Source: Acidobacteriaceae bacterium (GTDB taxonomy: Bacteria; Acidobacteriota; Terriglobia; Terriglobales; Acidobacteriaceae). From it: a stretch of 64,000 bases of DNA. A program made the position numbers and the translations under genes. The notes under the pieces are model-generated. The model searched no databases and was not told where the DNA came from. It was given only the letters and a program-made list of their open reading frames with translations. Below, in pieces: positions 35,528-51,028 of the stretch (position 1 is the first letter of the stretch; each line of letters begins with the position of its first letter). Where the stretch lies: contig JASHRF010000060.1 of NCBI GenBank assembly GCA_030037545.1, forward strand, positions 62,001 through 126,000, written 5' to 3'.

Positions 35528-37612
35528 ATGACGCTCGAAACCACCCCTGAACTGCCCTCGGCCATAACCCGCGATCTACACGCCTGGGACGCGGGCGGTG
35601 CCGAATCTGCGCCGGCGCTCACCGCCTGGGTCAGCGCCAGGCTGGCCGCCCACGAAACGGCACTGGCCGCTCTGCTGGCCGTCGAGGGTCCACGGACGCC
35701 GGAAAACACCCTGCGTCTATACGATGCGGCCGCCGAGCAGCTAAGCCTGGCCGGCTCGCAGGCCGGCATTCTCAACTCTGTGGCGGCGGAAAAGGGACTC
35801 CGCGACCAGGCGCAGCAGGAGGCGCAACGAGTCGCCATGGCGGCCACGGCGCTGAATCTGAACCGGCAAGTTTACGATGCGCTGGCGGAGATGAGCGCGG
35901 CGATGAGCAGGGACGGGGCCAGCCCTGCCACCCGGCACTACGTCAACCGGACTCTGCTCCAGTACCGGCTGGCCGGCGTGGACAAGGACCAGGCCACCCG
36001 CGACCGCTTGCAGGCCCTCCACGAGAAGGCCACGCGTCTTTCGCTCGAATTCAGCCGCAACATCCAGGAGGGAGCCAAGAACATTGAAGCCACGACGGAA
36101 GAGCTGGAAGGCATGCCGCCCGATTACATCTCCCGCCATCCGCCGAACGCCGAGGGTCGCGTCATCCTCACCACCGATCAGCCTGATATGCAGCCGGTGA
36201 TGATCTTTGCCGCCAATCCCGCCTTGCGGGAGCGGATGTTCCTGGCCTACAACACCCGCGCCTACCCAGCCAACAAGCAGATTCTGCTGGATTTGCTGGC
36301 CACGCGGCAGGAGATTGCCGGCATTCTGGGCTTCCGTAGTTGGGCCGACCTGGCTACCGCCGACCAGATGATGGCCTCGGCCGCCAATGTGCGCAAGTTC
36401 CTGGACCGGCTCGACAAAGCCAGCCTCGATGGTGGGCGTCACGAGCACCAGCGTGTTTTGGCCTTCGCCCAGAAGCGGCAGCCCGGTCTCGCGGAAATCG
36501 ACATCGTCGGCCGCGGTTACTGGTACGAGCAGTTCCGGCGCCAGACCTTCAACTTCGACTCCAATTCTGTACGCCCTTATTTGCCCTATGCGCGCGTCCA
36601 GGCCGGCGTCCTGGAAACCGCGGAGCGGCTCTTCAACGTGGAATTCCGGCCCGCCGAGGCCCGCGCCTGGCACCCGGCGGTCTCGGTCTTCGACGTGTTC
36701 GACGGCGCTAGAGCGGGGGCGCGGCTAGGCCGCTTTTACCTCGACATGCACCCGCGCGAGGGCAAAGACAAGTGGTTTTCCGCGGCTACCGTGATCGCCG
36801 GCGCGCGCGGGCGCTATTTGCCCGAAGCCGCGCTCATCTGCAACTTCCCGGGCGGCCCGCCCCAGCGACCCGGGCTCCCCGAGCCATCCGCCGCTGGAGA
36901 TCCGGGCGGGGAAGATGGCGATCCAGGTCTCATGCAATACTCCGACGTGGTCACCTACTTCCACGAGTTCGGCCACCTGATGCACGCCATTCTTGGCGGT
37001 CACACAGAATGGGCCGGAATTTCCGGCTTCGCCACCGAGGGCGACTTCGTCGAAGTCCCCTCGCAGATGCTCGAAGAATTCTTCCGCGACGAGAAGCTGC
37101 TTAAATCCTTCGCCCGCCACTATGAAAGCGGCGAGGTGCTGCCATCGAAGCTGATTCGCGACCTGAAGCGGGCCAGCGCCTTCGGCCGGGCAGACTGGGT
37201 CCGCTCCCAACTCTTCTACGCCACCTTAGCGCTCGACCTGCACGACCAGGACCCGGCCGGCCTCGATCTCGACGCCAAGCTGCGGCAGCTCTATGAGTCG
37301 TTCCAGCCCTGGACGTGGATGCCAGGCAACCGGATGTACTCGAGTTTCACCCACCTCACCGGATACTCTTCGAACTATTACACCTACGCTTTCGACAAGG
37401 TGATCGCACTCGATTTTTTTGCCCAGTTCGATCCCGCGGACCTGCTGGCCGGCACCACCGCCGCGCGCTATCGGAAAACGGTATTGGAACAGGGTGGCTC
37501 CAAGCCGGGCCGCGAGATGGTGCGCGATTTTCTGGGCCGCGATGAGGATTTTGCGGGCTTTGCGAGGTGGGTCAACGAGGAATTTGAAGAACAGGTTCCA
37601 GCCGGAAGGTGA
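35528..37612 (+). CDS. M3-family zinc oligopeptidase
   Basis: A 694-aa thimet-oligopeptidase/PrlC-like metallopeptidase that cleaves short peptides. The zinc site is YFHEFGHLMHAIL (HEFGH near residue 479), with the downstream Glu in EVPSQMLEEFF. Flanking family blocks are TRHYVNRTLLQYRLAG, RFYLDMHPREGKDKWF, and MYSSFTHLTGYSSNYYTYAFDKVIA near the C-terminus. A GGAGG at 35512-35516 selects ATG 35528. No signal peptide is seen, so it should be cytosolic. It is divergent from aroDE. Confidence 0.93.
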   Translation: MTLETTPELPSAITRDLHAWDAGGAESAPALTAWVSARLAAHETALAALLAVEGPRTPENTLRLYDAAAEQLSLAGSQAGILNSVAAEKGLRDQAQQEAQRVAMAATALNLNRQVYDALAEMSAAMSRDGASPATRHYVNRTLLQYRLAGVDKDQATRDRLQALHEKATRLSLEFSRNIQEGAKNIEATTEELEGMPPDYISRHPPNAEGRVILTTDQPDMQPVMIFAANPALRERMFLAYNTRAYPANKQILLDLLATRQEIAGILGFRSWADLATADQMMASAANVRKFLDRLDKASLDGGRHEHQRVLAFAQKRQPGLAEIDIVGRGYWYEQFRRQTFNFDSNSVRPYLPYARVQAGVLETAERLFNVEFRPAEARAWHPAVSVFDVFDGARAGARLGRFYLDMHPREGKDKWFSAATVIAGARGRYLPEAALICNFPGGPPQRPGLPEPSAAGDPGGEDGDPGLMQYSDVVTYFHEFGHLMHAILGGHTEWAGISGFATEGDFVEVPSQMLEEFFRDEKLLKSFARHYESGEVLPSKLIRDLKRASAFGRADWVRSQLFYATLALDLHDQDPAGLDLDAKLRQLYESFQPWTWMPGNRMYSSFTHLTGYSSNYYTYAFDKVIALDFFAQFDPADLLAGTTAARYRKTVLEQGGSKPGREMVRDFLGRDEDFAGFARWVNEEFEEQVPAGR

Positions 37613-37883
37613 GATTCCGGCCCCTGCGCAGCCCGCCGGAATCATCATTTGCGCGATATGGGCGCAACATTTCTTCGCAGCGCGGGTCTAAGTAAGCAGA
37701 TTACCAGGAGAGGGGGAGGACGCCTGTCCTCTTTACTCCCAGGAACACCTGCAAGCGCGAATCGGGGACGCAAGCCTCCGGTTACGGGCGCCAGCCTGTC
37801 GCGGTACCTGCTCCTTGCCGAGCACGATTGGCGGAGAGTGCAGAACATCCAGCTGCCTTGGCCTCTTTAGTCAGAGGAGGTAA

Positions 37884-39395
37884 ATGATGCGGAAGAACCT
37901 GTTTCTTCTTTTTGTGTCGGCCATGGCGATGTTGCTGCTGGCCGGATGTGCTACAACCACCGTAAGTCCTTCCTCAGCGGGAGCAGTTCCCGTTTCGCTC
38001 AGCATGACCGACGATCCGCCTGCCGGAGTTTCGGTCTTGTTCTTCCAGATCAGCCTGACGAACGCCACGCTGACCCCTGCATCGGGCACGGCGATTTCGC
38101 TCCTCAGCAACAACACGCCCATACAGATTGATGTGACCCAGCTTCAGGCACTTTCCGCCTTTCTGAGCACGGCGAATGTGACCCCAGGAAGCTACAACAG
38201 CCTGAGTCTGACTTTTTCCAGCCCGGAGCTTGTCATCTTCAACGCCTCAGACAGCTCGATTGCCAGCTCCTGCGCCGTCGGAAGCGTCTGCGAAATCGCT
38301 CCGTCGATCGACGACAATTCCGCCACGGTGAACTTTACGACGTCGCCGTTCCCGGTAACGGTGACTGCCAATTCGCCCCTTGGATTCCTGATCGATTTCC
38401 ACCTCAACACCATCATCCAATCCGATCTTTCCGTGGACCTGGGCGTTTCAAATGGAGTGACGATCGCGGAGCTGCCCCCGGCTCCGTCGTCCCATCAATT
38501 CGGCAACCTTACCGGAGTGGTGCAGAGTGTGAACGCGTCCCAGAACCAGTTCACGCTGCAAACGGCGTGGGGCAGGACGTTCACGATCGACACCACCGCA
38601 AGCACTGCTTTTGACGATTTTCCCAGCAGCGCGTGCACATCCGCGAGCATCTCCTGCCTGAGCGCCGGCCAAATCGTACAGGTTCAGGTTACGAGCGTGG
38701 CCAGCGGCGGAGTATTGCAGGCGGGTCAAGTCACCTGGCTCCAGGCTGCCACGCAGCAGACTGCGCAGGGAACGATCATCGGTCTGCAGACTTCGAGCAG
38801 CGGCACGACCATGAAACTGCTACTGCACAACAATCCATCCAACAATAGTGGTTTGCCTCTGGGCGGGGTGGCGTCAGTCAGTATCGCCAGCGGCGCCACC
38901 TTCTCTGTCGATGCCAATGGCTTCACTTTGCCCACGGGTTTGAGCTTCACCAGCGCCTCCAACCTGTTCATGGGACAGGAGGTTCAGGTAGACGTGGTGG
39001 CGGGGTCGCTGAGCACATCCAGTGCGCACGGTTTCTCGAGCAGTTGGGGACCTCCGCGGTCGCTTTCCTTTACCGCCAGCAGCGTGGAGCTGGAACCGAG
39101 CCAGGTCACCGGAACGATCACCGGGCTCGATTCGCAGGCGCAGAGCTTTACCCTCGGCGGCAATGGAGGGCCATTCTTTTTCCCGTGGCCTATGACTGCT
39201 CCCAACGCCGTTTCGTTCAATGTGCTGACGACCTCCCAGACGACTTACCAGGGATTCAGCACGGATACCTATGACGGGCTCGCCGACAGCGACTTCGTCT
39301 CGGTGAGCGGCTGGCTTTTCCCGCCGGCGAGCAGCAGCGGCCCGCCTACACTGGCAGCCGAAACCGTGGTGATGCGGTCCAACGGGATGTTCTAA
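37884..39395 (+). CDS. DUF4382/DUF5666-type lipoprotein
   Basis: A 503-aa lipoprotein (signal NLFLLFVSAMAMLLLAGC). The N-terminal domain is DUF4382-like: VPVSLSMTDDPPAGVSVLFFQ and LTNATLTP, then IQIDVTQLQAL and PGSYNSLSLTFSSPEL. After a linker come repeated short beta domains of the DUF5666 type (LTGVVQSVNASQNQFTLQTA; AQGTIIGLQTSSSG; GTITGLDSQAQSFTLGG). Such proteins are exported and very common in Acidobacteria; their ligands are unknown. The ribosome binding site AGAGGAGG supports ATG 37884. Confidence 0.85.
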   Translation: MMRKNLFLLFVSAMAMLLLAGCATTTVSPSSAGAVPVSLSMTDDPPAGVSVLFFQISLTNATLTPASGTAISLLSNNTPIQIDVTQLQALSAFLSTANVTPGSYNSLSLTFSSPELVIFNASDSSIASSCAVGSVCEIAPSIDDNSATVNFTTSPFPVTVTANSPLGFLIDFHLNTIIQSDLSVDLGVSNGVTIAELPPAPSSHQFGNLTGVVQSVNASQNQFTLQTAWGRTFTIDTTASTAFDDFPSSACTSASISCLSAGQIVQVQVTSVASGGVLQAGQVTWLQAATQQTAQGTIIGLQTSSSGTTMKLLLHNNPSNNSGLPLGGVASVSIASGATFSVDANGFTLPTGLSFTSASNLFMGQEVQVDVVAGSLSTSSAHGFSSSWGPPRSLSFTASSVELEPSQVTGTITGLDSQAQSFTLGGNGGPFFFPWPMTAPNAVSFNVLTTSQTTYQGFSTDTYDGLADSDFVSVSGWLFPPASSSGPPTLAAETVVMRSNGMF

Positions 39396-39506
39396 AACCG
39401 CTGGACGGCCATCGTTTTTTGGAAATAGGCGGTCGGAGACCAACCCCGGTTTCTGACCGCCGATCTCTCTGTCCAAGATGGTTTCCTCGATCGATAAGGC
39501 CATGCG

Positions 39507-39887
39507 CTATTCCGGTCCCAGGACGAGCGGACCGAAGGAATTATCGATGAGGGTAAGCCACGCGCCATCCGGCTGGCGACGGAAGACAGTGGTCGCGATA
39601 AAGGTCCGCGATACTTCTCCGTTCTTCTCTGTGAACTTCCAGCGCGAAAGAAAAAGTGCGATTCCATCTGCTTCAATTACGTGTGTCTTGAGCTGGCTGG
39701 CTGAGGAACCAGCATGCGCGACCCGTTCGAAGAAGCTTCCCAGTTCGGCTTTTCCCCGCGCCGTTTTTCCGGGCTCCGTGACAAGGACCGCTGCGTCCTC
39801 ATAAAAGCTGAGAACGGCATCGACATCACCGCGGTTGAAGGCTTGATCGAGAGACTGAACAGCTTCTTCAGGGCTTCGCGCGATCAT
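39507..39887 (-). CDS. SnoaL/DUF4440-like small protein
   Basis: A 126-aa NTF2-fold protein of the SnoaL-like/DUF4440 group: SPEEAVQSLDQAFNRGDVDAVLSFYEDAAVLV, GKAELGSFFERV, VIEADGIALFLSRWKF and a DGAWLTLIDNSFGP end. Members bind small molecules or are orphan; no catalytic residues can be assigned here. It lies 20 bp downstream of the S53 peptidase gene on the same strand and may be co-transcribed with it. Confidence 0.8.
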   Translation of the reverse strand: MIARSPEEAVQSLDQAFNRGDVDAVLSFYEDAAVLVTEPGKTARGKAELGSFFERVAHAGSSASQLKTHVIEADGIALFLSRWKFTEKNGEVSRTFIATTVFRRQPDGAWLTLIDNSFGPLVLGPE

Positions 39888-39907
39888 TCCTTATCCGTCG
39901 GATGTTG

Positions 39908-42181
39908 CTAGCGCCTTACTTCAAAGGTAAGGGTTGTGGTTTTCGTAACTCCGCCGCCGCTGCCCGTGATGGTGATGGGATAGGTGCCGGTGGGCGCGGA
40001 TCTCGACACGGTGAGATTGAAATCGACGCTGCCCGAGCCCGGCGCCGCCAGGGAGCTGGGGCTGAAGCTCGAGGTTACGCCCGAGGGCACGCCAGTGGCT
40101 GAGAAGCTGATGGCCGAGTCAAACCCGCCGGAGACCGCAGTCGTCACCACCGCGTAGCCGCTCTGGCCCTGATCGAGATATCCCGAGGTGGGCGATACGG
40201 TGATGGTGAAGGTTCCGGTTGACACGGTGGTCACGGTCAGCGAAACCGTGGTGGTTTCGGTCGTGCTACCGGACTTTCCGCTGACGGTGATGGTGTAGGT
40301 TCCTGCCGCAACCGTCGACGCCACCACGATGCTCATCGTCGAGCTTCCCGTTCCGGTGATCGATGTAGGGTTGAAGGTGATGGTGACGCCGGTGGGCTCG
40401 CCGGAAGCCGACACTGTAACCGCCGAGTCAAAGCCGCCGCTCACCGTGCTGGTAATCGTGGAGCTTCCCGAATTGCCCTGCACAATGGAAACCGAGCCGG
40501 GCGAGGCGGAGAGCGCATAGCCAGGAGTGGTGGACGAAGAGCCGGCCAGCGCGTCGATCAGACCGGAGCCGTTGGGGCTGCCCCAGCCGGTAGCCAGATC
40601 GTAGCCCGTGGTTGCCGAATAACCGTTGCTGCCGCTGCTGATGTCGTGAAAATCGGAGTCGTAGCTCGAGCCTTCGCCGATGGAGTAAAGGCTGGGGTTG
40701 ATGAAGCCAGCCGTCTTGTTGTCGTTGGCCACCGATTGCTGGTTCACCAGCGCCAGGTAGCCGGCCCACATAGGCGTGGCAAAGCTGGTGCCTCCGTACT
40801 CGTTGGCGGTGCAGGTGGTCTGATCGGCGCAAACATAAAACGTAAAGTTGGCGTTGGCGGAAACATCCGGTCCGTTGCGATACGTCTTGGAGCAGCTCGA
40901 GCAATCGCTGGCCGCGGTAGTCTGCCACGAGGGCAGCGCATATTTGTCGGGAGAGATGCCGCCCCCGCCATCGGACCATGCTGTTTCCGAGGCCCACGGA
41001 CCGGCTGCACTGCTGGTCTCCAGATCCGTTCCGCCCACCGAGGTCAAGTAGACGTCGTCGGCCGGGAAAATTTCGGATCTGGTTGTCCACGCGCCGCTGT
41101 CGCCGGCTGCCTGGAACAGGTTCTGTCCCTGCGCGGCAAACTCCTCGAAATACGGATTGTCGGTGCTCGGGTCCGCCGGGCTCCACGTCCACGAGGAACT
41201 CAATTGTGCGTTGAGCGGGCTGGCCGTGGCCATGGCGTTGAAGATGGCTGCGTCCGTCGAGCCCACGTACATCACCAGGCTCGACAATCCCGGCGCCATG
41301 CCAAGCGCCTGCGTCATGTCGATGGTTTGCTCGGTGTCGTCGCAGTCGCCGCCGGCTCGATCGTCCACGCAACTGGTGCTCGTGCCATCGGTCGAAACCA
41401 GGGTGATGGGAACGTTGTTGGTCTGGCCCGCGTTCTTGAAATAGGTATCCAGGTCGCTCAGATCGGTGCCGTAGTACTCCAGCAATCCCAGCGACTGGCC
41501 GCTGCCGGTCAACGTGCCGCCATAATAAGCGGCGCGCATGTCGCTGCCTAGAAACGAGGCGTCGGGGCCGGAGCCGGTGGTTGCGCCCGAAGTGCTTTTT
41601 CCGGACGCGGGCCGCTTGTCCAGGCCGGCGGGATGGGGAATCGAGTAATTATCGAGACCCGAAATGTGCCATAGCGGAAACGGCAAATCCACCGTAGGCT
41701 CGGTCTCGGGAGAGAAGAAGGTGCGGTTTTTTATGGGATCCTGATACTGCCCTATCGTCACATGAAAGGCGCTCTTTACGGCCGAAGCCGGGCCGGATAC
41801 GTTGATGTTCAGCCGGTTGAGTGAGGTTCCGGTGACCGTGAATCCGTGCTCCTGAAGATACGCAATCACCGTGTTGTAATCGTCCTGCGTGGGCCCGTAC
41901 TGCGCCGTGAACTGATCCACGGTCAGAAACTGGTGGTAGGAGGAGCTGTTGGGGTCGTACACCTCCTGGAGGAAATTCTCCAGCCCCGCCTCATTGCGCA
42001 AGGGCAGAGTCACCACCAGGTTCATGGTCTGATTTGCGGGCAAGGGTGCGATGAAAGAAGCCTGGCCGTTGATCGTGGCCGGACGAACGTGGTGTGTCAA
42101 AAAGGTTTGGGCTTGGCAAACGGCAGTCATCCCGAGCGCGACTGCCGCCACTTTGAGCAGATGTGTCCTTGGGGGATGCAC
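39908..42181 (-). CDS. Secreted S53 (sedolisin/kumamolisin-like) serine peptidase
   Basis: A 757-aa exported acid peptidase. After the signal peptide (LLKVAAVALGMTAVCQAQ) there is a pro-kumamolisin activation domain (NLVVTLPLRNEAGLENFL, SSSYHQFLTVDQFTAQYGPT). The S53 catalytic Glu and Asp are in DCDDTEQTIDMTQALGMAPG, the oxyanion Asp in AAGDSGAWT, and the nucleophile Ser in YGGTSFATPMWAG. A Ca-binding segment (SDFHDISSGSNGYSATTGYDLATGWG) follows. The last 200 residues are two or three Ser/Thr-rich Ig-like repeats (TVSGGFDSAVTVSASGEPTGV), probably for surface or substrate binding. S53 enzymes work at low pH, in keeping with an acidophilic lifestyle. Confidence 0.94.
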   Translation of the reverse strand: MHPPRTHLLKVAAVALGMTAVCQAQTFLTHHVRPATINGQASFIAPLPANQTMNLVVTLPLRNEAGLENFLQEVYDPNSSSYHQFLTVDQFTAQYGPTQDDYNTVIAYLQEHGFTVTGTSLNRLNINVSGPASAVKSAFHVTIGQYQDPIKNRTFFSPETEPTVDLPFPLWHISGLDNYSIPHPAGLDKRPASGKSTSGATTGSGPDASFLGSDMRAAYYGGTLTGSGQSLGLLEYYGTDLSDLDTYFKNAGQTNNVPITLVSTDGTSTSCVDDRAGGDCDDTEQTIDMTQALGMAPGLSSLVMYVGSTDAAIFNAMATASPLNAQLSSSWTWSPADPSTDNPYFEEFAAQGQNLFQAAGDSGAWTTRSEIFPADDVYLTSVGGTDLETSSAAGPWASETAWSDGGGGISPDKYALPSWQTTAASDCSSCSKTYRNGPDVSANANFTFYVCADQTTCTANEYGGTSFATPMWAGYLALVNQQSVANDNKTAGFINPSLYSIGEGSSYDSDFHDISSGSNGYSATTGYDLATGWGSPNGSGLIDALAGSSSTTPGYALSASPGSVSIVQGNSGSSTITSTVSGGFDSAVTVSASGEPTGVTITFNPTSITGTGSSTMSIVVASTVAAGTYTITVSGKSGSTTETTTVSLTVTTVSTGTFTITVSPTSGYLDQGQSGYAVVTTAVSGGFDSAISFSATGVPSGVTSSFSPSSLAAPGSGSVDFNLTVSRSAPTGTYPITITGSGGGVTKTTTLTFEVRR

Positions 42182-42536
42182 GAGTAGCCTCCTGAAAACG
42201 CTGTAATGATCGGGGAAAGGGGTCGAGAAACGATGGATTTTGTTTTGTATCCCGGAGACGAGCTATGCTTGTTTCCCTCAGAGATGAACCATTGTTATCC
42301 AAGTCGAGCGCGGGTGTCCACAGAAATCCGCGCGTGGAGGATCGCCGGCGGAAATTGGCGAAGAATCGTTGCGGGCCGCGCTGCACACGGCGTGGAAGCT
42401 GCGCGTGGAGAAGAATCGAAAGTCCGGTAAACGGCCGGTAGTTCAGCCAGTCAGCCTCGGTGAGCCTGTTGATTCCGCTGGCTTGCGGACTTCCTAGCTC
42501 GCTGTCTTGTTCGTCCCGCGCGCTATGATTGCCGCG
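42182..42536. other. Intergenic region between divergent S53 and SDR genes
   Basis: No supported gene, repeat or structured RNA is seen. It should contain both divergent promoters; none is clear enough to call. Confidence 0.35.
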
Positions 42537-43373
42537 ATGACCAATCGTAACCAATTTCGCGGCAAATGGGCACTGGTAACGGGAGCCAGCTCCGGGATCG
42601 GCGCGGCCCTGGCCCGCGAGCTGGCTTCGCGCGGCGCAAACCTCGTCCTGACGGCGCGGCGGCGCGGACGGCTCGAAGCTCTGGCTTCAGAGCTTGGCGC
42701 GCAGGGCGCCAAAACGGGTGTCGACACGCGCATCCTCGTCGCCGATCTCAACGATCCCGCTGCGCCGCGGCAGATCTTTGACGCCACCGAAGGCGCGGGC
42801 CTCACAGTCGACATTGTCATCAACAACGCCGGCCTCGGCCAGTACGGCGCGTTCTACGCGAGCCCGGCGGAGCAGGAGCTGAACCAGGTGCGCGTGAACT
42901 GCGAGGCCGTAGTGCGCCTTTCGCGTCTCTTTGTCCCGCGCATGGTCGAGCGCCGGCGCGGATGGGTATTGATCCTGGCTTCGACGGCCAGTTTTCAGCC
43001 CGTTCCCTACCTCACCACCTATGCGGCCACCAAGGTTTTCGATCGCTTCTTCGCGCTGGGGCTGGCGGCGGAGGTCGCGCGCTTCGGCGTCAAGGTGACG
43101 GTGCTCTGCCCCGGTCCCACGGAGAGCGAGTTCTTTGAGATCGCACACGCCAGCGCCTTCAAGCGCCGCGTGCAGGAGACAGCCATAGTGGCGCGGAGGG
43201 GCGTAGACGCGCTCATCCGCGGCCGGCGCATCGTCATTCCCCCTGCCAGCGGCCGTTTCAATGCATTTCTGGTGCGCTTTGTGCCCGTCGGGCTGATTAC
43301 GCATTTTGTGGAGCGAGTGGCGCGGCCAAGGGAAGCAGGGGCCAAGGGACCAAAGGAACAAGGGAACAAGTAG
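42537..43373 (+). CDS. Short-chain dehydrogenase/reductase
   Basis: A classical SDR of about 278 aa: WALVTGASSGIGAALAREL (TGxxxGIG NAD(P)-binding), LTARRRGRLEAL (Arg suggesting NADP), VDIVINNAGLGQYG (NNAG), then ILASTASFQPVPYLTTYAATKVF, giving the Ser-Tyr-Lys catalytic set (YxxxK as YAATK), and VLCPGPTESEFF. Start may be ATG 42537 or ATG 42525. The last 15 residues (GAKGPKEQGNK) look like read-through of intergenic DNA. Substrate unknown. Confidence 0.88.
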   Translation: MTNRNQFRGKWALVTGASSGIGAALARELASRGANLVLTARRRGRLEALASELGAQGAKTGVDTRILVADLNDPAAPRQIFDATEGAGLTVDIVINNAGLGQYGAFYASPAEQELNQVRVNCEAVVRLSRLFVPRMVERRRGWVLILASTASFQPVPYLTTYAATKVFDRFFALGLAAEVARFGVKVTVLCPGPTESEFFEIAHASAFKRRVQETAIVARRGVDALIRGRRIVIPPASGRFNAFLVRFVPVGLITHFVERVARPREAGAKGPKEQGNK

Positions 43374-43791: not shown

Positions 43792-43847
43792 CAGGCTCTG
43801 GCCGCGAGGAACATAATCCGATCACTCTTTATTCCTCGGGGGAATCC

Positions 43848-45209
43848 GTGCAAATTCTAGAGTTCCTGGCCGAACTGGCCACTGACACTGAAGTAATGTC
43901 TGCATTCCGGAATGCGCCGGAGGCGGTTTTGCGCGCGCGATGCATCAGCGAACAGGACCGGCTCCTGCTCCTCTCCGGTGATCCCATGGCGATTAGCTCG
44001 GTGGTTACCGCGGAAGTGGCAAGACAGCAGGAAACGGCAAGAACGACAGAAGAATCCGCACGGCATGCGCATGTGCCGGAGTTCCCTGATACGCACCCTA
44101 CCAACTCGCCGCCACCCAAGCCTCGGCCAAAGCCCAAGGCGGACGCGTGGACCAGAGAAGGAACCACGGGGCGTGCGCATGTGCCGGAGCTCCCCGATAC
44201 GCACCCTACCAACTCGCCGCCACCCAAGCCTCGGCCAAAGCCCAAGGCGGACGCGTGGACCAAGGAAGAGTCTTCGCCGTTGGGAAACTCGTTCGTTCCA
44301 CAATCGAGCCAATTTGAGCCTGATGCCGAACCGCTCGATCTGGAGCTTGACCTGGCGCAGGACGCGGTGCTGATCGGGAGTCCCTCCGCCCGCCTGGCGG
44401 ATAGCGAACCCGGCGGCGTGTGGGGCTCGAAGGGATTAACCGTGGTCGGCATGGGGATTCGGGCCGGCCTGCACATGACCCAGGAGACGCGTGTGGCCCT
44501 TCAGCAAGCCGCGAAAGTCCTGTATCTGGTTGCCGATCCCATCTCCGAGGCCTGCATTCTCCAGCTCCAACCGAACGCCACGTCCCTCCGCGCTCTCTAT
44601 GAAATCGGCAAACCGCGCATTGAAATCTACGAAAACATGATCGCCAAAATCCTCAGCGAACTGGAGTCGGCCGGGAATCTTTGCGTGGCGTTCTATGGCC
44701 ATCCCGGGGTGCTCGTATATCCGGCGTGGGAGTCGATTCGCCGCGCCCGCGCCACAGGCAAGCGCGCGCGCATGCTACCCGCCATCTCCACGGAGGACAC
44801 GTTGTTCGCCGATCTGGGGGTCGATATCGCCCGCGCCGGCCTGCTGAGCATCGAGGCTACGCGATTCCTTTACTACAAGTACAACTTCGATCCGAGCGTG
44901 GGCCTGGTGCTTTGGCAGGTGGGCTCGCTGGGCGAGCACGATTGGAATCCTCCCCACACCGCGGCGCGGCCGCGGTTCGAGGTGCTCACCGAGTATCTGG
45001 AGAAGTTCTACGGGCCGGACCATCCCGTGTTCCTCTATCACGCGCCGGAGTATCCTACCAGCCGCCCGCTGGTGGAGCGGGTGCCGTTGCACGCGCTGCC
45101 CAACGCCGAGCTGATCTCCAGTTCGACGCTGTATATTCCGCCGCGCCGCCAGCCGGAGCCCAACGAAGAGGTTCTCCAGGCTCTGGAACGGTTGACGGCG
45201 AGCAAGTAG
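43848..45209 (+). CDS. Borosin-like fusion: BBD-like domain, Pro-rich repeats, alpha-N-methyltransferase
   Basis: About 453 aa. Residues 1-50 (ILEFLAELATDTEVMSAF, then NAPEAVLRARCISEQDRLLLLSGD) resemble the small helical borosin-binding/LigA-like domain of split-borosin precursors such as SonA. Residues about 74-140 hold two 36-aa Pro/Lys-rich repeats. From about residue 197 a tetrapyrrole-methylase-fold domain follows (LTVVGMGIRAGLHM, FYGHPGVLV, MLPAISTEDTLFADLG, WQVGSLG, STLYIPPR) with strong likeness to OphMA/SonM. Tyr251, Arg257, Tyr261 and Tyr283 match OphMA Tyr66, Arg72, Tyr76 and Tyr98 at identical spacing. Borosin enzymes methylate backbone amides of their own or a partner's core peptide. 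GTG 43848, with GGGGGA just ahead, fits the domain start better than TTG 43788. Confidence 0.85.
   Translation: MQILEFLAELATDTEVMSAFRNAPEAVLRARCISEQDRLLLLSGDPMAISSVVTAEVARQQETARTTEESARHAHVPEFPDTHPTNSPPPKPRPKPKADAWTREGTTGRAHVPELPDTHPTNSPPPKPRPKPKADAWTKEESSPLGNSFVPQSSQFEPDAEPLDLELDLAQDAVLIGSPSARLADSEPGGVWGSKGLTVVGMGIRAGLHMTQETRVALQQAAKVLYLVADPISEACILQLQPNATSLRALYEIGKPRIEIYENMIAKILSELESAGNLCVAFYGHPGVLVYPAWESIRRARATGKRARMLPAISTEDTLFADLGVDIARAGLLSIEATRFLYYKYNFDPSVGLVLWQVGSLGEHDWNPPHTAARPRFEVLTEYLEKFYGPDHPVFLYHAPEYPTSRPLVERVPLHALPNAELISSSTLYIPPRRQPEPNEEVLQALERLTASK
44066..44268 (+). repeat. Tandem 108-bp coding repeat (two copies)
   Basis: Two near-identical copies with a period of 108 bp (44066-44173 and 44174-44268, the second slightly short) encode HVPEFPDTHPTNSPPPKPRP and KPKADAWTREG twice, with few changes. 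The high DNA identity indicates recent duplication. They lie between the BBD-like domain and the methyltransferase domain, so they are either a flexible linker or the substrate segment. Confidence 0.9.
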
Positions 45210-45369
45210 CCGGCTCACCGGTTGGCGCGGATTCGGCTTCTCGGAAGGGCGGGATTGCCGTCCTTCCTGTTTTCACTGTCCCCAGGCGGTGCGCATTAAC
45301 TGCGCATCAACTCCTGGACTGTTGGAGCTGCCCTTGCCGCGCGAAGCTGTGATTCGCGGCCGCTTCAAA

Positions 45370-46174
45370 AAGGACGCCGGATGGCTCGGCGACGAGAAGC
45401 ACCCACCCCAATGCACCCTGGCCGCTCAACGCCGTCATTCAGCAGAACCGGCAGACCAGGATCGTAGTCTCCGACGGGAACCTTGCCGCCCTTAGGCTAC
45501 TTGATCGAAAGGAGCTATCCCTTGAGCAATACCTCCAGCCCGACTTTCGGGAGAGCCTGGTTCCACCTCGACTTGATGACAGTCTGGCGCGCATGATGAC
45601 CTTTCTCTCCCGATCGGAACTCACTTCGTTTGCGGACGTGGCCGTCGCTGCAGCTTTGGTCAAGTTGGCCGGGCCAGCCGGAGACCAGGTTTCGCTCTCT
45701 TCGGCGCGCAGTCTCGACCGCCGGGACTTGGAAAAGGGCAGCTATATATTTGTCGGCAGCGCCGTCTCCAACCCGTGGGTTGCGCTATTTGCCGATAAGC
45801 TCAATTTCCAGGTGGTCGAAGAAGGAGTGGACGGGCGAATGTACTTCCGCGACCGCAACCCACTGCCAGGCGAAGGAGAGGATATGAGGCCTGACGCAAA
45901 CCGGTTGCACCGGCGAGGATTATGCCACGATCTCCCTGCTTCCCGGCCGGTTGGACCAGGGGAACGTAATGATTCTGCAGAGGCTTCGCCAGGAAGGTAC
46001 CGAGGCGTTGAGCGTGTTCCTGGCCAATGCGGCCGATCGCGCAAAGCTGCTGAAGGCAGTCGAGCGCAACGCTAAATCGGCTTCGCCTTACTTCGAGGCT
46101 CTGGTCCGCTCTCAGGCCGTGGCCGGCGCGCCGGTTTCAGTCGATGTCGTCGCCGTCCGCAGTATTCAGCCGTA
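45370..46174 (+). pseudogene. Decayed conserved hypothetical gene
   Basis: A continuous reading through shifted frames gives SATRSTHPNAPWPLNAVIQQN, IVVSDGNLAALRLLDRKELSLEQYL, SARSLDRRDLEKGSYIFVGSAVSNPWVALFADKLNF and then, after a frameshift near 45880-45905, GEDYATISLLPGRLDQGNVMILQ and a C-terminal KLLKAVERNAKSASPYFEALVRSQ. I recognise this as a family of Acidobacteria hypothetical proteins (PWPLNAV, IVVSDxNL, NYIFxGSxxSNPW), normally with an N-terminal DNA-binding or membrane part that is missing here. Function unknown. Confidence 0.55.
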
Positions 46175-46374
46175 ACCGTCGAACTTCGAGGACAAAGCCT
46201 CAGGGTCTGTCCGCTTGTCCAGAACGATGTTCTTGACGCGTGCGCGCCGGAATCCGCATACGTTGCCGGCGGAGCGGCCCTTCAAGGATGCCAGGGAGCC
46301 TTCTTCGATGTCTGTGAACATTCCAATGGTTCTCCGCCGATCCTCCCGTGTTTCGGTCATGCACTTGCACGGGA

Positions 46375-47916
46375 ATGGAGATGAAGGCCATCGAATCCAT
46401 TCTCGCCCCAAACAAGTTCACCCCGAAAAGACAGACAACACCCTCCTATCGGGACTTCTGCGAGGCTCTCAACACCGTGGATCGGCGGCTGGCGGCGCAG
46501 CCCGAATCGGTTCAGCTCTTGTTTCTGCGCGGTAATCTGCTGGAGCTGGCCGACCGTAAACCGGAAGCCTTGGACACCTACCGGACGCTGCTCCAGTTCG
46601 ATCCCGTGCATCGCGGCGCATTGATCAATATAGGTAACCTTCTGAGCGCAAGCGGAAAGAATGCTGAAGCGCACGAGGCTTTTTCGCGGGCGGTTGCCAG
46701 CAGTCCCGGCGACCCCATGTGCGAGGTCAGTTATGCGAACAGCCTGCGCAAGAGAGGGGAGTTGGAGAAGGCTCGCCAACATTTCCAGATTGCGCTCAAG
46801 ACCGATCCCGATTATTGGCAGGCGCATCTGGGCATGTCCTCCGTTTTGTGCGACCTGAACCGTGCAGAGGATGGGTATGCACATCGTCGCGCCGCCTTCC
46901 GCGGCCGCTGCATTGTCCCTCTGACCTACCGCGGGAAACAGCCTCCCATCACCGTACTGGAGCTGACGGCAATTGGCCCCGGCAATACGCGGTTCAAGAA
47001 TTTCCTGAGCGACAACATCTTCAAACGGTATCTTGTGGCCGCCGAGTTCTATGATCCCGGCACGCCCCTGCCTCCGCACCAGATCGTGGTCAACTCGATT
47101 GGCGATGCCGACGTGGCGGCCTCGGCACTGTTGGGCGCAGAGACCCTTGTTGGCCACACCGCGGCCCCCGTCGTGAATCAACCGGCAGCCGTGCTGGCCA
47201 CGGGCCGTTGCCAGATTGCACGCCGTCTTTCCGGACTGCCTGGAGTGACTGCGGCCATTACCGTCACTGTGCCGAGGGAATTACTCCTCGCGCCAGGAAC
47301 ACTGGATACTCTGCTTGGCTACGGATTTAGATTTCCTCTGCTGCTGCGCGCCCCGGGTTTTCATCAGGGCCAGCATTTTCTGCGCGTCGAGAACATGGAT
47401 GAATTGCCCGCTGCGCTCGAAACTCTCCCCGGAAATGAATTAACTGTCATGCAATATCTCGATGCACGCGGACGCGATGGAAAATCGCGCAAGTACCGGG
47501 TCATGACGATCGATGGAAATTTGTATCCCCTTCATCTTGCCATTTCGCAGCATTGGAAGATCCACTACTTCAGCGCGGAGATGGCCGACTCGCCCGCACA
47601 TCGAGCTGAGGAGCGGGAGTTCCTCGAGAATATGTCCGGCGTGCTGGGGTCCCGCGCTGTTCGCGCCCTTCAGGCAATTCAAAAGGAGCTCGGCTTGGAT
47701 TACGGCGGAATCGATTTTGGCCTGAATGAAGCCGGCGATGTGCTGCTCTTCGAAGCCAACGCAACCATGGCGGTCATTCCCCCGGCAGAAGAGGCACGCT
47801 GGGATTATCGCCGCCCGGCAACCGCCAGAGTCTGTGAAGCCGTGCACGCGATGCTGCGCCGCAAAATTCAGCGAGTTCGCGAGGAGATGACATGCCGCCC
47901 ATCGGAATGCTCGTAG
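46375..47916 (+). CDS. TPR-ATP-grasp protein
   Basis: About 513 aa. The N-terminal half has four or so TPR units (LLFLRGNLLELADRKPEALDTYRTLLQFDP; ALINIGNLLSASGKNAEAHEAF; ANSLRKRGELEKARQHF). The C-terminal half is ATP-grasp-like: FPLLLRAPGFHQGQHF, ELTVMQYLDARGRDGKSRKYRVMTIDG, and the metal-binding end LDYGGIDFGLNEAGDVLLFEANATM. ATP-grasp enzymes ligate carboxylates to amines or thiols, and in several RiPP systems modify peptides. It is 1.2 kb downstream of the borosin-like gene with a decayed gene between; partnership is possible but not shown. Start ATG 46375 or 46381; neither has a standard ribosome binding site. Confidence 0.75.
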   Translation: MEMKAIESILAPNKFTPKRQTTPSYRDFCEALNTVDRRLAAQPESVQLLFLRGNLLELADRKPEALDTYRTLLQFDPVHRGALINIGNLLSASGKNAEAHEAFSRAVASSPGDPMCEVSYANSLRKRGELEKARQHFQIALKTDPDYWQAHLGMSSVLCDLNRAEDGYAHRRAAFRGRCIVPLTYRGKQPPITVLELTAIGPGNTRFKNFLSDNIFKRYLVAAEFYDPGTPLPPHQIVVNSIGDADVAASALLGAETLVGHTAAPVVNQPAAVLATGRCQIARRLSGLPGVTAAITVTVPRELLLAPGTLDTLLGYGFRFPLLLRAPGFHQGQHFLRVENMDELPAALETLPGNELTVMQYLDARGRDGKSRKYRVMTIDGNLYPLHLAISQHWKIHYFSAEMADSPAHRAEEREFLENMSGVLGSRAVRALQAIQKELGLDYGGIDFGLNEAGDVLLFEANATMAVIPPAEEARWDYRRPATARVCEAVHAMLRRKIQRVREEMTCRPSECS

Positions 47917-48202: not shown

Positions 48203-48689
48203 AGCATTTTCACAGATGATGTAATCTTGTAGAGGCGACGAACCGCGAACAGTAGAGAATGGCGCGAGCGTACGCAGATGATTTGCGGCGGAAGTTTCTC
48301 GCCGCCTATGAGTGGGGGGACGGCAGCCTGCGCGCTCTGGCGTTGCGCTTCGGGATCAGCCACGGGTGGGCGCAAAAGATCTGTGCCCGGCGCTGTGGCC
48401 GGGCGACGTGGTGGTGATGGATAACCGGCGCGCGCACCACGATGACGAAGTGCGCGAGTGGATCGAGAAATGCGGGGCGGAACTGCTTTACCTGCCGCCT
48501 TATTCCCCCGACCTGAACCCCATCGAAAAGGCCTGGAGCAAACTCAAGAACCTGCTCCGCCAAGCCCAGGCTCGCACTCAGGAGGCACTGGAAACAGCCA
48601 TCGCCGCAATGCTTCCGCAATCACCCCCAGCGATGCTCAGGCCTGGTTCCGACTCCGCTTCGGTGAATTACACCATCTGTGAAAATGCT
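48203..48689 (+). mobile_element. Internally deleted IS630-family element
   Basis: Bounded by 23-bp inverted repeats: AGCATTTTCACAGATGATGT and AAT at 48203-48225, and its complement with one mismatch at 48667-48689. TA-rich flanks are consistent with the TA target preference of IS630/Tc1-mariner elements. At 487 bp it is less than half the length of a complete IS630. The central transposase portion is missing; both ends remain, so it could still be mobilised in trans. Confidence 0.85.
48259..48666 (+). pseudogene. IS630 transposase, internal deletion and frame change
   Basis: The N-terminal helix-turn-helix is read from ATG 48259 (ARAYADDLRRKFLAAYEWG, LALRFGISHGWAQKI). Near 48375-48400 the sequence jumps, in another frame, to the C-terminal DDE part: PGDVVVMDNRRAHHDDEVREW and ELLYLPPYSPDLNPIEKAWSKLK, which carry the second Asp and the Glu of the catalytic triad. 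The first Asp and the region between are absent, so no active transposase can be made. Confidence 0.85.
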
Positions 48690-49125
48690 TTAAGTTTTCC
48701 CAACTTCTTTCCCAATTTTTCGACCCTTTCTGTCTCCCCGACCGGGGAGGAACAGGTTCAGCCATCAGCGTTGTATTCGTGAGTTCTCGGTAGGATGCGT
48801 AGGTCAGAAGCAGTAGTCTTGGATGATCCAGTAATACCGGTCTTCGATGGCCTTTTTCACGGATCTACGACGTGCCGCCATCGATCGTTGCCGTTCGTTC
48901 GAGGTCGCTTGCGATCCAACGGTCACTCAGCGCATGCGCACGCTGATGGCACAGGAGTACCTGCGCCTTATGGAAAGAACAGCAGAGGAGGTGAGCTGAC
49001 AACGAACGGCGGAAAAGAACAATTGGTGTTGTGCATCACTTTCGATTGAGCCAGGAAATGACTACCTTCATATTGGCCATGCTGGGGAACGTGCAACGAT
49101 GTCATGGCCAAGAGGAGGCGAACAT
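48690..49125. other. Intergenic region after the IS630 remnant
   Basis: No gene with family support is seen. An 84-codon frame at 48795-49049 has irregular composition and no ribosome binding site. AGGAGG at 49111-49116 belongs to the next (broken) gene. Confidence 0.35.
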
Positions 49126-49742
49126 TTGAAAGCCGCCTCACTCGTAATTCCTCCGGGGCCAGTTGAGCGCTTTGGGAATCCGCTGACAGAAGCAGCCCCC
49201 TACGGGATCACTCAGGCGCTCGCTTCAGTAAGCAGGGCGTTTATTTGCTTGGACCCTTCATTCACCGTTTTGCCCGCCTCGCACCTGCTCGATCGTCTCT
49301 TAGGAGAGGGTGCCCCAAAGGCAATATGTGGGCAGCCTGTCGAGGAATTGCTCGGCATCGAGCTATTCGGGCCAAAGGGTCCGCTGAGACAGGCGCTTCT
49401 GGATGAGCAAATGCGCGAGGGTTGGCGCGCGACCCTGAAGTTCAACAGTGCCACTTCCCGGCTGGTTTCCATCACGACTGCGTCGCTCGTATCCAATAAC
49501 ACCGATATCTGCGATCCCCTGGTTCGCTATTTGGTGCTCTTGCGGACGGCTGATGAAGAGGTCGCCTGCCCGAATGCGCCCGTCTTCTATTCCAGTGCGG
49601 TTGCCTGTTCTCCGGCGATGCTTCGTATTTTCCGGATGATCGAGACGCTCCAGCACAGCAAGGCTACTGTGTTGATCGCCGGGGAAAGCGGCAGCGGAAA
49701 AGAAGTGGTGGCCCGCGCGATTCATCAGTACTCAACGCGAGC
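49126..49742 (+). pseudogene. Truncated sigma-54-dependent activator
   Basis: TTG 49126, with AGGAGG nine bases upstream, starts a PAS-like sensory part (ITQALASVSRAFICLDPSF, VEELLGIELFGPKGPLRQALL). It runs into the AAA+ domain of NtrC-type activators: MLRIFRMIETLQHSKATVLIAGESGSGKEVVARAIHQYS, split by eye. The Walker A (GESGSGKE) is intact, but the sequence ends about 50 residues into the AAA+ domain, near 49741. There it is fused to the signal peptide region of a FadL-like gene. GAFTGA, Walker B and the HTH are all missing, so it is inactive. Confidence 0.78.
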
Positions 49743-51028
49743 TTGCCTCTCAGCACCTCAAGTACCTTTTCTTTGGTGTCCTGGGCCACCTTCGCCGCGT
49801 TGCCATTCGCAGGCGGCGCAACCGCGTGGTCCACGAATGGGTACCAGTTTATCGGCGTGGGACAATGCGCGATGAGGATGGGAGGCAGCGTGGTAGCGGT
49901 TCCCTGCGGTCCCATGATCGCCCTCAGCAACCCAGCGGGCATGGCCTGGCTCGTCCCGCAAGTCGCTTTTTCGGGTGAGATCTTCAACCCGACGCGGCGC
50001 GCCAACTATGGATTTGGCGATTTCGGAAGCAATACCAATGTATATGCGGTTCCCTCATTGGGCTGGTTGGCTCCGGCGATTCACCTGAACATCTTTTTGG
50101 GGGACGGCATTTACGGCACATCCGGCATGGGCGTGAATTATCTTCAACCCAACACCCCAATGGGAACGATTCAAGCATACAGCAGCATAAACTTCATGCA
50201 GATAGCGCCAGCCCTGGCTTACAAAAATGGAAGACAAGCTCAGCGTTGGCTTCGCGCTGGACGGCGGTGCCGAGCAGGTTTCCTTCAATCAAACATTCGG
50301 GGGACAGGGCCTTAACCTGACCAGTCCTTCCTGGGCTTGTGGAATCGGCGCCACAGTAGGCTTTCTGTACAAGTACAACAAAATGGCAACTGTAGGAGCA
50401 TCCTACAAGTCCGAGATGGTCTTCACCCAACTGCACTGGAATGAGACTCAGGAATTTCTGCCCACCGGGGTCATAGTAACCCCGAATGGAATAGAGCCTG
50501 TCGGCGTCGAGGGGAGCGTGGGAACCTATACTTCGCGTCTGAATTATCCGCAACAGGTCGCCTTCGGTGTCGCCCTGCATCTGGTGCCTCAGATGATGGT
50601 CAGCACCGAGGAGCAGTGGATCAACTGGCACAAGACCATGAACCAGTTCACTGTTCACGGTCCCTGGACGGGAACGTCTTTTGTGGCCTTGCCCCTGAAC
50701 TGGCAGAACGAATGGGTTGGCAACCTTGGTCTGCAGTATGACACTGGCAAAAGCCTGCAGTGGCGGGCCGGATTTTAACTACGGCGGCAGTCCTATCAAG
50801 TCCGCCGATGTCCAGGCCAACATGATTATGCCAGCCGTTGTGACGACCGCGGTCACCTTCGGCGCTACGCAGAAGCTGCCGATGCGCTGGACCCTGACGG
50901 AAGGATTCATGCACACGTTTCAGAACAGTGTTTCGGGTGGAACTCTGCTGGGAATATCCGGTTTGGAGCCGCCGAAGTACTCCCTGACGGAAAACTCCAT
51001 CGGCTTTCAGATCGGGTACGTCTTCTAG
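49743..51028 (+). pseudogene. FadL/OmpP1-family outer membrane transporter, two frameshifts
   Basis: The sequence begins inside a signal peptide (STFSLVSWATFAALPFAGGA), followed by the FadL N-terminus FIGVGQCAMRMGGSVVAV and ALSNPAGMAWLVP. The reading moves to a second frame near 50222-50230 (KLSVGFALDGGAEQV, GATVGFLYKYNKMATVGASYKSEM). It moves to a third at the T-run 50774-50778, continuing NYGGSPIKSADVQANMIMPAVV to a typical outer-membrane end IGFQIGYVF with a C-terminal Phe. FadL proteins carry hydrophobic compounds across the outer membrane; this copy is not functional. Confidence 0.8.

Follow-up and report, generated by a model that had tools for sequence, protein, structure and literature searches.

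The 453-residue protein encoded at 43848..45209 on the forward strand of the window (the whole 64,000-nucleotide stretch of Acidobacteriaceae DNA analysed here) is a fused borosin-type protein in which a borosin-binding domain (BBD), a linker and a methyltransferase follow one another in an open frame. We favour, with modest confidence, the reading that it is a precursor and an enzyme in one chain, methylating an internal core peptide on itself. The domain assignments and their order are secure for this frame. The BBD occupies residues 1-53 (43848..44006), as judged from a SonA match, a BBD profile match and the helices of an AlphaFold model; two 36-residue, Pro-rich tandem repeats (AHVPE[FL]PDTHPTNSPPPKPRPKPKADAWT...) were located by TRF at 44062..44262; and the SAM-dependent alpha-N-methyltransferase domain (PF00590), recognised through Pfam and the PDB, spans residues 196-453 (44433..45206), with about nine residues of the protein remaining after the methyltransferase envelope. 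Between repeats and enzyme lies a conserved island, EPLDLELDLAQDAVLIG (residues 161-177; 44328..44378), delimited by paralogue comparison and BLASTP, which is a candidate internal core peptide. The GTG start is backed by a possible ribosome-binding site read from the sequence, GGGGGA at 43838-43843, four nucleotides 5' of it, and by a paralogue whose ATG aligns at the same position and is preceded by a clear GGAGG. The first-pass annotation had placed the BBD first and the methyltransferase last, with any self-substrate internal or in trans, and the domain matches bear out this order.

The identity of the N-terminal domain rests on concordant sequence and structural comparisons. Residues 4-49 match SonA, and when the N-terminal 60 residues alone were compared with the PDB, all seven matches up to E 10 were precursor chains of SonM-SonA (best E 1e-3), several of which are labelled there as LigA-domain protein. 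Smith-Waterman alignment with the SonA stretch gave a score of 72, which none of 20,000 shuffles reached (best shuffle 46). The window protein, its paralogue and SonA were used to build a BBD profile, which matched the window N-terminus at 1.5e-15, the window sequence itself being one of its seeds. The AlphaFold model of the window protein (mean pLDDT 80.6) has N-terminal helices at residues 2-12, 14-22, 24-30, 35-42 and 46-74, the fifth predicted BBD helix thus extending to residue 74. According to the accessible text of PMC8429565, the BBD of SonA, residues 1-53, is a bundle of five helices, and our five-helix assignment combines DSSP of the full-length models with that description. The earlier suggestion of a SonA-type segment is therefore upheld by the PDB matches, the alignment score and the five predicted helices, and the model places the N-terminus in a BBD-like five-helix bundle, not outside that fold. 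At E ≤ 0.1 the window BBD has no Pfam match. Since LigA (Pfam) matches two related fusions described below, L029 (0.013) and L026 (8.7e-6), and NCBIfam IniB_NTERM matches two of six scanned fused proteins (best 2.3e-7), the domain also resembles the LigA and IniB_NTERM families.

The C-terminal part is equally clear in its affinities. Its best phmmer matches in the PDB are SonM (3e-44) and dbOphMA (5.5e-44), and the 32 PDB sequences that reach E ≤ 0.1 include no tetrapyrrole methylase. The sole Pfam domain seen in the protein, TP_methylase (PF00590; residues 197-332, 1.9e-10), covers borosin enzymes and tetrapyrrole methylases alike, and NCBIfam returned only a weak YabN match of 35 bits against a cut-off of 525. 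Structure-based alignments give 34-36% identity to SonM. VIA-align Z values of 18-20 for borosin enzymes and 12-13 for tetrapyrrole methylases were obtained with the window model, in which the methyltransferase halves are misplaced (rmsd about 16 Å to SonM). The PDB ranking and the lower structural Z speak against a CobA/CysG-type tetrapyrrole methylase, and the OphMA/SonM-like enzyme recognised at first sight is confirmed as grouping far closer to the borosin enzymes.

Four residues of this domain, Tyr251, Arg257, Tyr261 and Tyr283 (44598..44696), correspond to what we take to be their counterparts in OphMA, Tyr66, Arg72, Tyr76 and Tyr98. Our alignments comprised 65 rows (A5, among them 61 taken from a set of 80 stand-alone methyltransferase references) and 58 rows (A6); in the four columns, Y, R, Y and Y are found in 63, 64, 65 and 65 of 65 aligned rows. 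The positions proposed in the first-pass annotation therefore stand, and the +6/+4 spacing of the first three residues agrees with dbOphMA, but not with SonM, which has three extra residues there. Catalytic and SAM-related roles are assigned by analogy with residues tested in KchMA, OphMA and SonM, as reported in the accessible parts of PMC11395268 and PMC8429565. Elsewhere in the enzyme, the window protein and its paralogue depart from positions kept in relatives, with, for instance, W294 where 60 of 63 have H, T or S at 318 where 58 of 63 have C, and I327 where 61 of 63 have P. Because of these deviations an altered or lost activity is conceivable on sequence grounds.

The paralogue belongs to the same genome (4.17 Mb in 128 contigs, 88.7% complete). 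It lies on contig C19 (L004:5881-7110, minus strand), has 409 residues in the same BBD-linker-methyltransferase order and is 64% identical to the window protein overall. Identity is 74% in the methyltransferase, 63% in the BBD and 27% in the repeat and linker region, the last figure coming from an uncertain alignment of 63 of the 106 window linker codons. TRF reports one array in the window gene (44062-44262; period 108 bp, 1.9 copies, 96% matches), in agreement with the two Pro-rich repeats noticed at the outset, and the paralogue carries its own tandem repeat of a different sequence (period 81 bp, 1.9 copies, 81% matches). Between the two copies the repeats diverge faster than the remaining parts. 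Within this poorly conserved linker, residues 160-177 are 78% identical to the paralogue and are flanked by stretches of 27% and 33% identity. Differences per site in these codons amount to 0.11 at positions 1 and 2 and to 0.50 at position 3, which indicates, from a sample of 18 codons, that selection acts on the peptide sequence of the island. The enzyme likewise differs more at codon position 3 than at positions 1 and 2, and since enzyme and island differ mostly at third positions, purifying selection has acted on both.

The island is a 17-residue acidic and hydrophobic peptide, as conserved between the paralogues as the enzyme itself. BLASTP aligned EPLDLELDLAQDAVLIG with SKDLDLTITLPPPPPQYDVVVSG of L029, a fusion from Methylocystis, in which the stretch LDLTITLPPPPPQYDVVVSG is aligned with window residues 161-177. 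The alternation of acidic and hydrophobic residues in the island resembles the type III core pattern described in the available portion of PMC11395268. We favour residues 161-177 as the core because no other part of the linker is conserved, because they align with L029 and because their alternation is like that of type III cores. Another possibility is that they act as a structural anchor next to the enzyme.

For the Pro-rich repeats the likeliest role is that of a variable spacer; failing this, they may be additional cores. That they, and not the island, are the cores, with two near-identical units methylated around a motif E[FL]P[DQ], seems to us unlikely. The paralogue does have two copies, of a different repeat with period 81, and repeated tails occur in split precursors: a 5-mer recurs after the BBD in 18 of 61 distinct BBD ORFs, at least four times in 10 of these and up to 23 times, counts in which one gene (L008, L023) appears twice and some repeats are simple Lys, Ala or Pro. 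However, hydrophobic residues are scarce in the window unit, where Pro and Lys abound, and proline has no amide hydrogen. Borosin cores are primarily hydrophobic according to the accessible text of PMC11285071. L029 also lacks a tandem copy. The rapid divergence of the repeats counts against them as well, although variable cores would diverge in the same way. Since the two paralogues share the island but vary freely in their repeats, the location of the core is directly testable.

In the self-methylation reading that we favour, the methyltransferase carries its own SonA-like precursor at its N-terminus, made up of the BBD and a core downstream of it. Like the characterised borosin enzymes, the protein would form a dimer by way of its methyltransferase, and the BBD would dock on the enzyme either in cis or on the dimer partner. 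A linker of about 100 residues may then let the internal core, most likely EPLDLELDLAQDAVLIG (161-177), reach the active site, where its backbone amides would be methylated with SAM. Product release would take two cuts by a peptidase because the core sits between two folded domains. The docking itself cannot be read from the window model because its methyltransferase halves are misplaced; its N-terminal helices are as in the model of L029 (mean pLDDT 86.7), where they span residues 3-12, 14-22, 24-30, 35-43 and 46-54. The L029 methyltransferase superposes on SonM with a TM score of 0.92 by target length and an rmsd of 2.0, and pLDDT falls below 50 at residues 64-101. A more elaborate proposal, which we regard as speculative and rather doubtful, is that the two genes form a duplicated self-methylating pair, each with a fixed internal core held between docking domain and enzyme and with fast-changing repeat spacers or repeat cores, so that one genome would make either a pair of related peptides with N-methylation or a pair of proteins that stay backbone-methylated for good and need no release.

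The distribution of relatives places this protein among uncommon fusions. Single-sequence scans of genome contigs and viral contigs found no relatives, and a scan of named genomes with an 11-row methyltransferase alignment gave 250 relatives from 290 matching stretches; the analysis covers the best 80 relatives. Counting the window's own genome, matches occurred in 14 of 396 sampled genomes of the same phylum, in 4 of 298 of the same order and in 3 of 100 of the same family, one of these being weak and with stops. The gene is patchy, since none of the 20 other listed genomes of the same genus matches. Among the best 80 of 250 loci, the BBD was a separate ORF in 56, fused N-terminally in three and absent from the DNA examined in 21, some of which begin too near the gene to tell; ranking by likeness to the window enzyme may bias these shares. 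The three fusions are L029 (Methylocystis), L093 (Eremiobacterota) and L079 (Streptomyces melanogenes). L029, from the Methylocystis sp. MAG JALHNQ010000023.1 and thus from a different phylum, is the closest outside relative among the matches listed, with 58% identity in the methyltransferase, and its enzyme forms one clade with those of the window pair (SH-aLRT 99). It has the same BBD-linker-methyltransferase layout, but a shorter linker without tandem repeats. Within the order of L029, matches came from 8 of 297 genomes, that of L029 included, and the 8 loci checked there held no BBD-first fusion other than L029. L119, from the window's own order, is a split system.

Mapped on a tree of 104 rows built by a quick method, from which pieces shorter than 190 residues, duplicates and the copies L001, L003, L004 and L009 were omitted, the N-terminal BBD fusion requires three changes, and the starred branches force at least two. 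This suggests that the fusion may have been gained or lost about three times.

The split types IV-X have a separate precursor, bearing its own BBD where there is one, whereas no BBD-carrying partner was found in this 88.7% complete genome. The BBD profile returned nothing further at E ≤ 1 apart from one 11.7-bit match (E 0.97). With just the two fused copies recovered, the genome shows no partner of the split kind, although an assembly of this completeness may lack a trans precursor. Besides the two fused genes, PF00590 matches two others more strongly, making four in all. It is possible, though we think it quite improbable, that the protein resembles class 2, with BBD and methyltransferase fused, the linker a mere tether and the core a separate small protein without a BBD. 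The Figure 1 legend of PMC11395268 lists, in the part accessible, a class with BBD and methyltransferase in one protein and the core in another, and fusions with a short linker or none exist in L093, L079 and L026-L028. Yet these fusions lack the long linker and the island, while our searches recognise only BBD-carrying precursors and so weigh little either way.

Several other arrangements were seen among the relatives. L113:985-2346 (minus strand), from the order to which L029 belongs, holds a 454-residue frame with the methyltransferase followed by a weak BBD match (4.6e-4), which is the OphMA order in a bacterium. L026:1315-2277, with L027 and L028 (same-phylum genomes G163, G127 and G139), has a BBD fused to a methyltransferase without a linker. 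In the enzymes of these fusions, three of the four catalytic positions align with Pro, Thr and His, and the fusion adjoins an apparently intact methyltransferase; a third methyltransferase lies 5' of it in G163 and G127 and on another contig in G139. The L026-type protein is possibly a dead, BBD-carrying subunit serving an active partner. MAGs labelled Thermoplasmata or Methanomassiliicoccus (L037, L039, L044, L059, L080, L108) have a separate BBD ORF just 5' of the methyltransferase, and these archaeal pairs appear, from their sequences, to be split and borosin-like. Split precursors of Myxococcota type (L035:2509-3489 and L032:2509-3489) bear core-like tandem units after the BBD, with 23 copies of VVYAA and 12 of MVYGA.

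The surroundings of the gene offer no shared context. Searching nine window neighbours against the portion of the paralogue region covered by the analysis, where the fused gene adjoins that of DNA polymerase III alpha, gave no match, and neither a common neighbourhood nor a releasing peptidase was found. Window neighbours have three matches elsewhere: one, in L034, is an SDR, and those in L060 and L106 are weaker. Orthologues of the upstream SDR, at 65-76% identity, are present in ten genomes of the same genus, one of which, G429, is listed without a borosin match. As the neighbourhood is not common to both copies and an SDR orthologue occurs in a genome listed without a borosin match, we rejected the neighbours as pathway partners. 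A TPR protein (46348-47916) has a C-terminal region weakly like ATP-grasp (PF14398, E 0.088); most of its matches are to the TPR repeats only, and its C-terminal region has a 47% relative in one same-genus genome. A gene for a pro-kumamolisin-type peptidase (39908-42181; PF09286) was considered as the releasing protease and set aside, as nothing ties it to the locus. In same-genus relatives, DNA matching 36135-37604 lies near the SDR, at about 90-120 bp in L132 and L135 and at 670 bp in L134; because these relatives place the flanks close together, the window has about 5 kb more than they do (37600-42560, with the pro-kumamolisin-type gene in it). At 45300-46175, where two ORFs tested had no Pfam match, fragments that look coding are spread over several frames and are probably a broken gene. 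Further downstream are a partial DDE_3 transposase (48312-48782) and an ORF (49099-49875) that stops early within a sigma-54 activator AAA domain, both pointing to insertion and to decay of genes close to the locus.

These remnants, the absence of matches in the 20 other same-genus genomes and the unusual residues at conserved enzyme positions would fit a borosin fusion that was acquired horizontally and has since decayed or taken on another use, no longer yielding a product and possibly methylating itself without release. We nevertheless consider this very improbable, as all four catalytic residues are kept and third codon positions differ more than the others in enzyme and island, the mark of purifying selection.

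Several known borosin types can be set beside the window protein. The accessible text of PMC11395268 lists types 0-X and adds a new type XI. It describes type 0, credited to Lee et al. 2024, as having the core N-terminal and the methyltransferase C-terminal. The window protein is alike by that description, with its precursor part N-terminal and its methyltransferase C-terminal in one protein, and the island at 161-177 is the candidate for a core N-terminal to the methyltransferase. The first-pass suggestion that the reversed layout might be undescribed is thus overtaken by the type 0 borosins, as PMC11395268 presents them in the part available. With SonM-SonA, the type IV split system of Shewanella oneidensis (PDB 7LTC; PMC8429565, in its accessible portion), it shares the BBD sequence, the predicted five-helix layout and the methyltransferase. 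That system, however, keeps its precursor apart from the enzyme, with the core as the precursor's C-terminus; the window protein fuses the two, and any core that it has is internal. Types I-III (OphMA, dbOphMA and the bacterial KchMA) are likewise single-chain precursor-enzymes with the same catalytic residues, but in the order methyltransferase, clasp and C-terminal core. The window order is the reverse, and the roughly nine residues behind its methyltransferase leave no clasp or core there. Type XI XulAM also has a C-terminal methyltransferase, but its N-terminus is a domain of unknown function where the window protein has a BBD, a comparison made from the description in the accessible text of PMC11395268.

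The window protein is therefore a real, well-supported member of a rare layout already reported, and its reversed order is not new at the level of type. The accessible texts of PMC11395268, PMC8429565, PMC11285071 and PMC12710340 describe neither this lineage, nor the paralogue pair, nor such an island. What is new here is the lineage, a duplicated gene pair whose repeats diverge, and a candidate core inside the chain. If active, the protein would carry its own substrate within a self-contained module for backbone N-methylation, and could show whether borosin enzymes methylate a doubly tethered loop and how such a core leaves.
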